The notes beneath the pieces were generated by a model, which saw only the letters and a list, made by a program, of their open reading frames with translations, had not been told where the DNA came from and searched no databases. 41,539 nucleotides of DNA from Candidatus Hydrogenedentota bacterium (lineage in GTDB: Bacteria; Hydrogenedentota; Hydrogenedentia; Hydrogenedentales; CAITNO01): NCBI GenBank assembly GCA_022706235.1, contig JAKJCY010000008.1:1-41539 (forward strand), in the 5' to 3' direction. This document shows positions 29,717 to 35,690 of this stretch, piece after piece; position 1 is the first letter of the stretch, and the number at the start of each line of letters is the position of its first letter. Made by a program: the position numbers and the translations under genes.

Positions 29717-30037
29717 TTAATGAAACAAGGTGTTTATCGGGCGTATCCGAGCTATATTCTTTTTCAACGCGCGGGTGGCATCCCAAAGGTCCACGGCACG
29801 CTGGGCTTTCAGCCAGTATTCAGGGGAATTGCCAAAGAAGCGTCCCAACCGAACCGCCAGCTCGGGACTGAGTGAACGCCGTTCGCGAAGCAGTTCATTG
29901 ATGGTCTGCCGTGAAACGCCCACAGCATCAGCCAGCGACGCCGCACTCAGGCCATATTCCGGAAGAAAATCTTCACGAAGCATTTCTCCGGGATGGGTGG
30001 GGCGAATGGTTCTTTCTACTGTATTTGGAAGGCTCAT
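29717..30037 (-). CDS. higA: HigA-type antitoxin
   Basis: This 106-residue protein is a helix-turn-helix antitoxin of the HigA/VapI group. It opens with the family hallmark 'RPTHPGEMLREDFLPEYGLS'. The DNA-binding helices 'ASLADAVGVSRQTINELLRE' follow, then 'LAVRLGRFFGNSPEYWLKAQ'. It should neutralise the toxin encoded upstream and repress the shared promoter. The ATG at 30037 has GGGAGATAGG upstream. It begins 14 bp after the higB stop, in the toxin-first order typical of higBA. Confidence 0.93.
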   Translation of the reverse strand: MSLPNTVERTIRPTHPGEMLREDFLPEYGLSAASLADAVGVSRQTINELLRERRSLSPELAVRLGRFFGNSPEYWLKAQRAVDLWDATRALKKNIARIRPINTLFH

Positions 30038-30051
30038 AAACCTATCTCCCG

Positions 30052-30333
30052 TTAGTGATAGTCCGTAATTTCGACGTCATAAGCATTGCCCGCCATGAAA
30101 CGGAAGCATATACGCCATTGGTCGTTAATCGCTATTGAATAAAATCCCTTACGGTCCCTTCCCAATCCATGCAACCGGTTGCTTGGAGGTATCTTCAAGT
30201 CGTCCAAACATGTCGCCAGGTCAACATATTCCAATTTGCGTATTGCGCGTTTGAGAATATCCGGCGATACTCTCCGCGATTGTCCAAGCGTATACAACTC
30301 CTGCGTATGACGATCGGCAAAAGTCTTTATCAT
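30052..30333 (-). CDS. higB: HigB-type toxin (RelE/ParE superfamily)
   Basis: This 93-residue protein is a HigB-like plasmid-maintenance killer toxin. It starts 'MIKTFADRHTQELYTLGQSR' and ends with the conserved 'LHGLGRDRKGFYSIAINDQW' and 'RICFRFMAGNAYDVEITDYH'. Relatives cut mRNA at the ribosome. The family start fits ATG 30333 exactly. The promoter -10 box lies only 6 nt upstream, which predicts that transcription begins at the start codon. Loss of the pair would leave the stable toxin, so the module may stabilise this accessory region. Confidence 0.93.
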   Translation of the reverse strand: MIKTFADRHTQELYTLGQSRRVSPDILKRAIRKLEYVDLATCLDDLKIPPSNRLHGLGRDRKGFYSIAINDQWRICFRFMAGNAYDVEITDYH

Positions 30334-30368: not shown

Positions 30369-30634
30369 GCGATTAAGAAAAAACAGGAATAGAATACATA
30401 ATACGCCGCTATTCGTCCCTTAATGTTTGCTGACTTTTTCCATGTCCTCTTTCGGCACGCACCATCAAAGGTCTTATTTCAGCCTTCAGCCTTCATCATT
30501 CAGCCTTCACCATTCAGCCTTCTGCAAACACCTTTCCGATGCGTTTCATCAGGCGGCAGCCCCCGCTTCCGGCGCGTCCGATAGGACAAGACGCAACACA
30601 TCTTCTTTTTCACAATAGGACAAGCACGGGGTAT
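30369..30634. other. Intergenic region with TTCAGCC repeats
   Basis: No gene is seen. Positions 30480-30523 carry imperfect repeats of CAGCCTTCA and CATTCAGCCTTC. A related heptamer array lies at 31413-31475, so the PIN gene pair is bracketed by similar short repeats. Confidence 0.55.
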
Positions 30635-31306: not shown

Positions 31307-31476
31307 GCTGATGGGCTACCAGGGTTGCTTTGAAATACACATGACGACTTCCAATGGGCAGTCATTTCTATACACATTATCTTACCATAATCAAGGCCCT
31401 TCAGACTTCAGCCTTCATACTTCATACTTCATACTTCATACTTCATCCTTCATCCTTCGCCCTTTAGCCTTTGCCT
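31307..31476. repeat. Intergenic with heptanucleotide tandem repeat
   Basis: At 31413-31475 there are nine consecutive 7-mers: four CTTCATA, two CTTCATC and three decayed copies. The perfect part can change by slippage. No gene is present between the PIN start and the DGR terminator region. Confidence 0.75.
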
Positions 31477-31689: not shown

Positions 31690-31826
31690 CTTGCGGGACG
31701 AAACCGAAACCGCGACGCGGAACCCGTTGTTGTTGTTCCTGTTGTCCGGGTTGTTCCTGTTGCGGTTGGCCGAGCGGGTGTTCCTGTTGTTGTTGTTCCA
31801 GGAGCCGCCCCGCAGCACACGATACG
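31690..31826 (-). repeat. DGR template repeat (TR)
   Basis: This 137-bp segment aligns without gaps to the 3' end of the target gene (33321-33457, offset 1631). On the minus strand its core is packed with AAC codons, giving Asn-rich translation such as 'GGSWNNNNRNTRSANRNR'. This is the usual design of DGR templates, where A is the mutable base. Between 31727 and 31797 all 15 differences from the VR are A in the TR and G in the VR. The flanks are identical, including a 16-nt G/C-rich block (31711-31726). It begins 3 nt after the RT stop codon. It is not a gene remnant, because no start or full domain precedes it. Confidence 0.93.
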
Positions 31827-33320: not shown

Positions 33321-33457
33321 CTAGCGGGACGAAACCGACAACGCGACGCGGAACCCGCCGTCGCTGTCCCTGTCGTCCGGGTTGTCCCTGTCGCGGTCGG
33401 CCGAGCGGGCGTTCCCGTCGTCGTCGTCCCAGGAGCCGCCCCGCAGCACACGATACG
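33321..33457 (-). repeat. DGR variable repeat (VR)
   Basis: This is the last 137 bp of the target gene, encoding residues about 514-558 and the TAG stop. It matches the TR except at 15 A-to-G sites in the core and at three flank positions nearest the stop (33323, 33339, 33341), which distinguish the two ends. The 16-nt identical block 33342-33357 is the likely initiation-of-mutagenic-homology site. The encoded core is Asp-rich ('GGSWDDDDGNARSADRDR'). Confidence 0.93.
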
Positions 33458-34997
33458 AACCGGTGGACGGCCCCGTTGGGTTCGTGACCGGCTCTGTTGT
33501 GTACACGCGATACCACCAGTCGTGGCACCACTCCCACACATTGCCGCTCATGTCATACGCGCCCACGGGACTCGTCGCGTTCACCGTCAGCGTGCCCGGT
33601 GCGCTCACCCGTGCCGGGTTCACCCCATTATACCAGCCCACCGGAGAAGTATAAGGCCAATCCAGGCCCAACGGGTTCGCGTAATCCTCAGACTCCCAAT
33701 CAGAATAGTTCGCACGGGTAAAATCAATGGTGTCGCTGGTCATGCCGTAGCGCCAATGCCGGCTGCCGTCCCAAGCCGCCGCCCGTTCCCATTCGGCCTC
33801 CGTGGGCAGGCGATACCCGTTGCGCACCGGTGCATACCGCGTCCAGTTCGAGGTATCGTAACAGGCCTGCAATCCGTTCTTCTCGCTCAACCAGTTGCAG
33901 TAACACACTGCACCGTACCACGAAACGTCGGTCATGGGATGGTCCGCCATGGAATACAGCACACCGCCATGCCCCGTGCGGCTGCGCACACCAAACACAC
34001 CGCCGCTGTACGTGATTTGGGAATAATCATAAGAGGCTTGTGTATCCGCGATGGGTTGGTTGTAGGCATAAATCAACCCGCCCGTGTACGTGCCTCCACT
34101 CGAATTTTTCAGGTAGCCCCGTCCCTGGGCCCAGTTCAACACGTCCGCGTACTCCTGGTTCGTCACTTCATACTTGCCGATCCGGTAGGCGTCCAGATAT
34201 ACGCCATGCACCGGCACCTCATAGCTACTACCCTCATACCAGGGATCACCCATCTGAAACGTTCCGGCAGGCACGTCCACCAGTTCCCCGGGAACCACCA
34301 CCGGTTCGCCTTCCACGGGAATCTCGCCTTCGCCCAAGGCAACAAATTCCGCTATCACGTGTTTGTCCGCATTTATCACGACCAACGCGGGCACTTGACT
34401 GCCGCTGAGGTCGCCTGTCCAATGGTGAAAGGCATAGCCAGGATACGGCACGGGCGTCAGAGTAACCTCTGTCCCCTCCGGATACAGCCCGCACCACGGC
34501 TGTCCGGCGACTGGCGGGCACAGCTCGCCCGGTTCCGGGTCCGGCGTGATGCTGCCATGGATATACTCCGGACTCACCGCGCCCAATCCCAGCATCAACG
34601 AATACATGACTTCCCCTTCCGCAGGCGCCGGTAATTCCCAGCACATGGGCGGCTCTTCACCCGCATCGTAGGCATACCACTCCCCGTTCTGCCACAGATA
34701 GGCCGCGCGGATGGCGTAGGACATGGAACAGCTGCCCTGCTGCCAGCACGCCAGATACCCAATCGCCTCACTCATCGTCATCCGGCCATCACCGTTGGAA
34801 TCCGCCGGGTGGCTTTGAAACGGCGGTTCCCCCTCGCCCTCAGGCGGGAGTTCCCCTTCGTATGGGGTCTCGCCTTCGTAATACCACTCGCCTTCCATCA
34901 CTTCCGCCCGCGCCGCTACGACGCCGAACAATACTACCGCCACCAGCATCGCCAACATCACACACGCTTCACTCCAGCACACAGATTCACGAGACAT
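33321..34997 (-). CDS. Secreted DGR target protein with FGE/SUMF1-type domain
   Basis: This 558-residue protein begins with a signal peptide (hydrophobic 'VMLAMLVAVVLFGVVAARA', cleaved after ARA). Glu/Gly-rich linkers follow, then a dockerin/EF-hand-like segment ('HPADSNGDGRMTMSEAIGYL') and an InlB-type repeat ('PYPGYAFHHWTGDLSG'). A formylglycine-generating-enzyme-like domain starts at about residue 255 ('VDVPAGTFQMGDPWYEG', 'YEVTNQEYADVL', 'YRLPTEAEWERAA', 'MSGNVWEWCHDWW'). This fold is a known DGR scaffold; the C-terminal 'YRVLRGGSW...GGFRVAL' part is the VR. I infer a diversified surface or secreted binding protein. Start ATG 34997 with GGAGGA is preferred over ATG 35054 because the signal peptide then begins properly. 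Confidence 0.92.
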   Translation of the reverse strand: MSRESVCWSEACVMLAMLVAVVLFGVVAARAEVMEGEWYYEGETPYEGELPPEGEGEPPFQSHPADSNGDGRMTMSEAIGYLACWQQGSCSMSYAIRAAYLWQNGEWYAYDAGEEPPMCWELPAPAEGEVMYSLMLGLGAVSPEYIHGSITPDPEPGELCPPVAGQPWCGLYPEGTEVTLTPVPYPGYAFHHWTGDLSGSQVPALVVINADKHVIAEFVALGEGEIPVEGEPVVVPGELVDVPAGTFQMGDPWYEGSSYEVPVHGVYLDAYRIGKYEVTNQEYADVLNWAQGRGYLKNSSGGTYTGGLIYAYNQPIADTQASYDYSQITYSGGVFGVRSRTGHGGVLYSMADHPMTDVSWYGAVCYCNWLSEKNGLQACYDTSNWTRYAPVRNGYRLPTEAEWERAAAWDGSRHWRYGMTSDTIDFTRANYSDWESEDYANPLGLDWPYTSPVGWYNGVNPARVSAPGTLTVNATSPVGAYDMSGNVWEWCHDWWYRVYTTEPVTNPTGPSTGSYRVLRGGSWDDDDGNARSADRDRDNPDDRDSDGGFRVALSVSSR

Positions 34998-35259
34998 CTT
35001 ATATTCCTCCGTTTGGGTTTCCGCAGTATCATGCTTCCTACAATACAGGTTCATTCAAAGTCTAACACAGTATACACCATCCTGCGAAAACACCTCCCTG
35101 TATCCGCGTGCGTACAGTCAAAGCTGACGTGTAACCCCTCTACGCATGGACTATAACGACACGAATACGTACCATTAAAGCCCACTGCGAATACGGGAAA
35201 TGGAATTTTGTAACCAGAGGAACACACCCCCTGTATTTATCTAAAGGCGGCTTTCCCCA

Positions 35260-35350
35260 TCCTACACGTCCTACCGGTCCTACCCGTCCTACTATAGCAG
35301 ACGCGGAAATGAGGTCTGTAGGACGGGTAGGACCGGTAGGACGTGTAGGA
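35260..35350. repeat. Perfect 32-bp inverted repeat of GTCCTAC units
   Basis: 35260-35291 is the exact reverse complement of 35319-35350, with a 27-nt loop. Each arm is itself made of GTCCTAC-type units (GTCCTACCG, GTCCTACCC). It could form a long cruciform or RNA hairpin. Confidence 0.85.
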
Positions 35351-35690
35351 CGGGGGGCCGGGGTCAATACAACCTTCCTGTGCACATACAGCGCACAACA
35401 GAAAAAATGGGACTGTTCCCCGCCGCCCAATACAAAAAGACCTGAGAAAACGCCTTTACCATGGACATGGGTATACACCGATAAATACCAATTCCCCCCG
35501 CGGCGGGAACTGTCCCGCTTTTTTCGGTCTTGCGCGATACGCCCGCAAAAAGCGGGACAGCCTCCGGCGCGACACAAGATTACCTGCACCGCTCACAGCC
35601 ATCCCGCGCGCGCCGGAGGCAGTCCCATTTTTGCTTAGTCGTCGCACGCGCCGGAGGCAGTCCCATTTACGCGTCTGCTATAGTAGGACG
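35285..35690. repeat. 406-bp segment with perfect 21-bp terminal inverted repeats
   Basis: 35285-35305 (core CTACTATAGCAGACGCG) is the exact reverse complement of 35670-35690. The interior has no gene but carries a 22-bp direct repeat with core CCGGAGGCAGTCCCATTT at 35609-35630 and 35647-35668. This looks like a non-autonomous mobile element or a composite of extragenic repeats. Confidence 0.65.

Follow-up and report, generated by a model that had tools for sequence, protein, structure and literature searches.

Why should every substitution in a variable repeat (VR) be a change of adenine to guanine? The question is raised by a diversity-generating retroelement (DGR) of a Candidatus Hydrogenedentota bacterium, lying in a stretch of 41 539 nucleotides (the window). 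A first-pass annotation, made from this sequence alone, had offered three causes: a strongly biased reverse transcriptase (RT), selection for Asp and Gly residues in the binding site, or an adenosine-to-inosine-like deamination of the template repeat (TR) RNA. The comparative data presented here address enzyme bias, selection and deamination for this VR. It lies at the extreme end of a known kind of variation and is an unusually acidic, apparently freshly written DGR allele.

Organization of the retroelement

The locus is a standard DGR, composed of an RT, the accessory variability determinant Avd, a TR and a target gene of the FGE/C-type-lectin type. The cassette is encoded on the minus strand in the order target gene (35054–33321), avd (33221–32832), RT (32860–31829) and TR (31826–31690), the TR being located directly 3' of the RT stop codon. 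The target protein has 577 amino acids, with an InlB-type repeat and a C-terminal FGE-sulfatase (C-type lectin) domain that covers residues 257–571; the 3' end of its gene, coding for the C terminus, is the VR (33321–33457, 137 nt). The TR core (31727–31797) contains 33 adenines and 14 AAC codons, and corresponds to the VR core at 33358–33428. Comparison with Pfam and NCBIfam identified FGE-sulfatase in the target, RVT_1 in the RT and bAvd/DivGenRetAVD in the accessory protein (NF033474, 82.2 bits for a cut-off of 80; PF22296). No Rfam family matched the cassette. The best solved relative of the RT by sequence is 8ub7_A (E = 3e-60), which we take to be the Bordetella phage DGR RT.

The RT contains the motifs YVDD and IGNQTSQ, the latter in agreement with the (I/V/L)GxxxSQ motif by which the DGR clade of RTs is defined (PMC3521204). 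Membership of the DGRs is also indicated by the presence of Avd, by TR/VR mismatches that face template adenines (15/15 in the core) and by the location of the VR at the 3' end of a gene whose target domain has the C-type-lectin fold. The source genome was binned from a metagenome (5.03 Mb in 545 contigs, 88% complete, 6% contamination).

Comparison of the template and variable repeats

The TR (31797 to 31727) was aligned base by base with the VR (33428 to 33358), both on the minus strand. Fifteen of the 33 core adenines are replaced by G in the VR and 18 are unchanged, whereas the non-A bases are identical throughout (38/38), as the first-pass annotation had reported. A core devoid of non-A changes suggests that the VR was freshly written. 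Over the full 137-nt repeat (31690–31826 against 33321–33457, 87% identity) there are three more differences, all outside the core. Two of them, G/T and T/G, are located in the 3' anchor (IMH) region. The third is an A/T difference, AAG in the TR corresponding to the stop codon TAG in the VR; it does not come from mutagenesis, because the orthologous DGR described below has the same AAG/TAG difference.

Spectrum of adenine replacements in other retroelements

The expected spectrum was established from DGR loci in genomes and viral contigs, which were gathered on the basis of similar RTs and freed of duplicates. TR/VR pairs were extracted by a script that required mismatches to face an A and was blind to the replacing base. 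In the 281 non-redundant pairs, adenines are replaced 2073 times by G, 1197 times by T and 827 times by C (51/29/20%). The null of equal outcomes in the first-pass annotation, with its chance of about (1/3)^15, is wrong: at the empirical A>G share of 0.506, the binomial probability of 15 G out of 15 is 3.6e-5. Variation between VRs exceeds the binomial expectation (281 pairs; likelihood ratio 40.6, significant), and a beta-binomial distribution fitted to the measured overdispersion gives 5.7e-4. The 51/29/20 null, with its overdispersion, can be used in place of one-third for each base.

The all-G VR is a true outlier, since none of the 281 surveyed VRs is all-G, though a milder one than (1/3)^15 implies. 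The surveyed VRs closest to it have G/T/C counts of 20/1/2, 16/1/2, 12/0/2 and 21/2/3. More than 30 000 DGRs have already been catalogued (PMC8144416), and some all-G alleles are to be expected across them. G is the commonest DGR outcome, VRs vary widely and those of one DGR may differ drastically (PMC3521204); in E. coli, the BPP-1 system is dominated by misincorporation of C, that is, by A>G (PMC12875486). G+C content was rejected as a cause of the all-G pattern, as it shows no positive correlation with the A>G share.

For the 29 pairs of sister VRs, each from one TR, the A>G share is uncorrelated (r = 0.02) and its heterogeneity is significant (p = 0.003). The A>G share is overdispersed between the VRs of the 281-pair survey, yet sister VRs of one TR are unlike each other, a subject on which PMC3521204 offers only 'data not shown'.

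Excess of aspartate in the variable repeat

The residue changes in the core are Asn to Asp (10), and Asn to Ser, Asn to Gly, Arg to Gly and Thr to Ala (one each). The 14 in-frame AAC codons now encode Asp (10), Asn (2), Ser (1) and Gly (1). The survey rate of AAC conversion to Asp is 8.6 per cent (1807 codons), and the largest Asp share reached by any of the 114 other VRs having eight or more AAC codons is 3/8. The proposed selection for Asp and Gly is thereby supported, though only indirectly, for Asp in particular (10/14 AAC codons). The first A of AAC is changed in 11 of the 14 codons and the second in two (hypergeometric p ~9e-4), whereas in other G-rich VRs both adenines tend to be changed, so that Gly and Ser are encoded. 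FGE homologues in the phylum have Asp at some of these positions, and none has the ten. Phages and plasmids were searched for Asp-rich relatives of this VR, and none was found. The replacement of ten Asn residues by Asp in a single binding face of the FGE fold makes this allele a candidate case of strong selection acting on the target of a cellular DGR.

The target also contains a dockerin/EF-hand-like DSNGDGRMTMSEAI stretch (window 34750–34830), and the VR allele reads DRDSDGG (33358–33380), a match to DxDxDG that may be due to chance given the ten Asp residues. Binding of calcium or another cation is conceivable.

The competing processes were compared by likelihood. A mixed spectrum gives lnL −37.1 and the addition of an Asp preference −20.6; a general A>G tilt on top of this preference gains only 0.3 lnL units and, taken alone, gives −35.4. 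A strict A>G-only process gives −22.7 if uniform (one parameter) and −16.4 with a preference for the first A (three parameters). Taken alone, the sequence is thus compatible both with selection for Asp acting on an ordinary spectrum and with an A>G-only event that prefers one codon position.

Origin of the all-G allele

The reading that we favour, with a probability of about 0.62, is that ordinary DGR mutagenesis, together with retention or selection of an acidic site, gave the all-G, Asp-rich VR. The RT–Avd complex would copy TR RNA into cDNA, erring only opposite adenines, and the mutated cDNA would replace the end of the FGE-fold target gene. Errors of the enzyme would be the normal mixture, with its general lean towards A>G. 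The all-G pattern would result from the retained allele, in which AAC (Asn) became GAC (Asp) at 10 of 14 codons, a conversion for which the first base must change from A to G while the second stays as it is; the other changes, few in number, are likewise to G, a frequent outcome of the normal spectrum. The acidic binding surface may then have been fixed in the assembled population by selection or by chance retention, possibly over several rounds. We infer that the Asp excess is due to selection and not to one odd event of cDNA synthesis, and the all-G VR is most plausibly a single, extreme, aspartate-rich allele that involves no new editing chemistry.

Several observations count against this explanation. 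The A>G-only process with first-A preference fits slightly better (lnL −16.4 against −20.6), and the four non-Asp codon changes are likewise all A>G. A ligand or function that would favour ten Asp residues is not known. Furthermore, the core without non-A changes looks freshly written and therefore leaves little time for stepwise selection.

A single synthesis of A>G-only cDNA is possible but considerably less probable. A skewed dNTP pool (excess dCTP) or another cell state would cause only C to be misincorporated opposite A, the bias being a property of the event and not of the enzyme. Such an event is consistent with the overdispersion of the A>G share, which exists even among VRs of one TR, with a half-to-half correlation inside VRs and with the best fit being that of the A>G-only process with first-A preference. 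For the BPP-1 RT, dNTP pools have been named as a possible factor, and the kinds of error made in vitro and in vivo are not the same and also depend on context (PMC12875486). By itself, however, an A>G-only event leaves unexplained the difference between the first and second A of AAC, and other G-rich VRs encode mostly Gly and Ser. Nor is the G share of VRs followed by changes at the third codon position, which in the survey stand at 0.45, 0.55 and 0.49 in the low, middle and high thirds of G share; the test is weak, and its result leans towards selection.

It is rather unlikely that the error type is set separately for each cDNA, by the dNTP state or by editing of the TR transcript, so as to be A>G-only in one event and mixed in another. 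If this were true, the DGR would be switched by cell physiology from the full repertoire to a narrow one (Asp, Gly, Ser and Ala) and back.

Other variable repeats of the same template and of the orthologous element

A pattern search of the genome detected this TR and two VRs, and nothing more. The second VR (C144:32907-33028) belongs to a target gene that codes for a 575-amino-acid protein and is 81 per cent identical in DNA to the first. It agrees with this TR at every non-A position except three, and was presumably written by it. Its spectrum is mixed: 10 adenines became G, 10 became T and 3 became C. The C144 contig belongs to the chromosome of this genome, because the region has orthologues at 80–91% identity in the sister genome G009. 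This genome, Candidatus Hydrogenedentota RA.bin58, of the same genus, is the closest named relative with this element. Its orthologous DGR (JAKLHG010000328.1, G009:C255) has an RT 90 per cent and a TR 89 per cent identical to those studied here, and a VR with 7 G, 10 T and 4 C. Both spectra differ from the all-G VR (Fisher, p = 2.8e-4 for the C144 VR and 5.6e-5 for the orthologous VR). On contig C349, G009 has two more repeats with mixed replacements; these constitute weaker evidence, as they contain many non-A changes. No VR alleles of this TR were found in viral contigs.

The VR-bearing fragment G009:C272, which is 100 per cent identical to C144 over 2870 bases, was counted once. This perfect identity between G009:C272 (L058) and G000:C144 (L009) contrasts with DGR loci that are only 85 per cent identical, and is probably due to cross-binning between the two metagenome bins.

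The first-pass annotation had named A>C and A>T changes at normal rates in other VR alleles of the locus as the observation that would speak against it. The C144 VR (10/10/3) and the orthologous VR (7/10/4) are such alleles, representing a paralogous target and a sister species rather than the identical gene in another cell. Together with the sister-VR results, they indicate that the VR spectrum is not a fixed property of the RT. An intrinsic restriction of this RT to A>G is therefore improbable. The 15/15 of this VR alone speaks for it, and the RT may have changed very recently; all VRs of such an enzyme should be A>G-only, but the C144 VR of the same TR is not, a 90 per cent identical RT yields a mixture and sister VRs have no common bias. 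As a constant property of this RT, A>G-only synthesis appears to be excluded by the C144 VR and the orthologue, and the fixed RT bias was rejected as a candidate. As the spectrum varies from VR to VR within one DGR, a single striking VR cannot be read as a property of its RT.

It is also improbable, and marginally more so, that the VR of the contig merges many alleles into a collapsed or mosaic consensus instead of representing one real allele. The source is a metagenome bin, with the fragmentation (545 contigs) and contamination (6%) mentioned above, and DGR VRs commonly show polymorphism within populations (PMC8144416). However, in the survey both adenine positions of AAC most often still read A (37% and 49%), and a consensus of normal alleles should be mostly unchanged A, not a clean run of GAC.

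If the TR RNA were deaminated ahead of reverse transcription, only A>G would result, but this cause is very improbable and has no positive support: its effect would be due in every VR of this TR and is absent from the C144 VR, no adenosine deaminase or other deaminase was found among the 23 window proteins scanned (as the first-pass annotation had noted), and the tadA-type gene of the genome is unlinked, of the housekeeping type and present in most bacteria. A search for the ADAR family had no positive control and carries no weight either way. Two of the three causes first proposed are disfavoured, and the claimed statistical strength was overstated.

Comparison with known retroelements

The RT and Avd are homologous to those of the DGR of Bordetella phage BPP-1 (bRT, Avd, Mtd), which also shares A-only mutagenesis and the transfer of an AAC-rich TR into a C-type-lectin target. 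In contrast to BPP-1, the present DGR is chromosomal, with the TR 3' of the RT and a large, secreted-looking FGE-domain target. In BPP-1, AAC gives mostly Tyr, Ser and Asp (PMC12875486), whereas the present VR is all A>G and Asp-rich. The DGR of RA.bin58 resembles the one described here in gene order, in the sequences of its RT and TR and in the AAG/TAG difference, and is distinguished by its mixed VR. The target also resembles the DGR variable proteins with the FGE subtype of the C-type lectin fold (TvpA, TaqVP and Mtd), its domain matching FGE and TvpA (2y3c). In FGE-subtype DGR proteins, AAC and AAT codons of the TR encode the variable residues (PMC6328139), a feature common to the present target. 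Unlike TvpA, TaqVP and Mtd, this target is larger and multi-domain, with Glu-Gly-Glu linkers and ten new Asp residues in the variable surface. By design, the variable sites of DGR targets lie together on the protein surface.

Other sequence features

AAC-rich, TR-like FGE repeats are also present on three short contigs of the same genome (G000:C251:3805-3899, C240:656-751 and C29:12120-12219). No DGR RT was found beside them on these contigs, and they are probably fragments of further DGRs. In the window, a HigB-like toxin and an HTH antitoxin are encoded on the minus strand (29717–30333), about 1.5 kb from the TR. TTCAGCCTTCA / TTCATACTTCA tandem repeats form two tracts (30478–30536 and 31400–31470) on either side of the genes that come next after the TR. 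Upstream of the target gene there is an inverted repeat (35255–35355) with 38-nt arms that are 97 per cent complementary and made up of CCTAC-type units.
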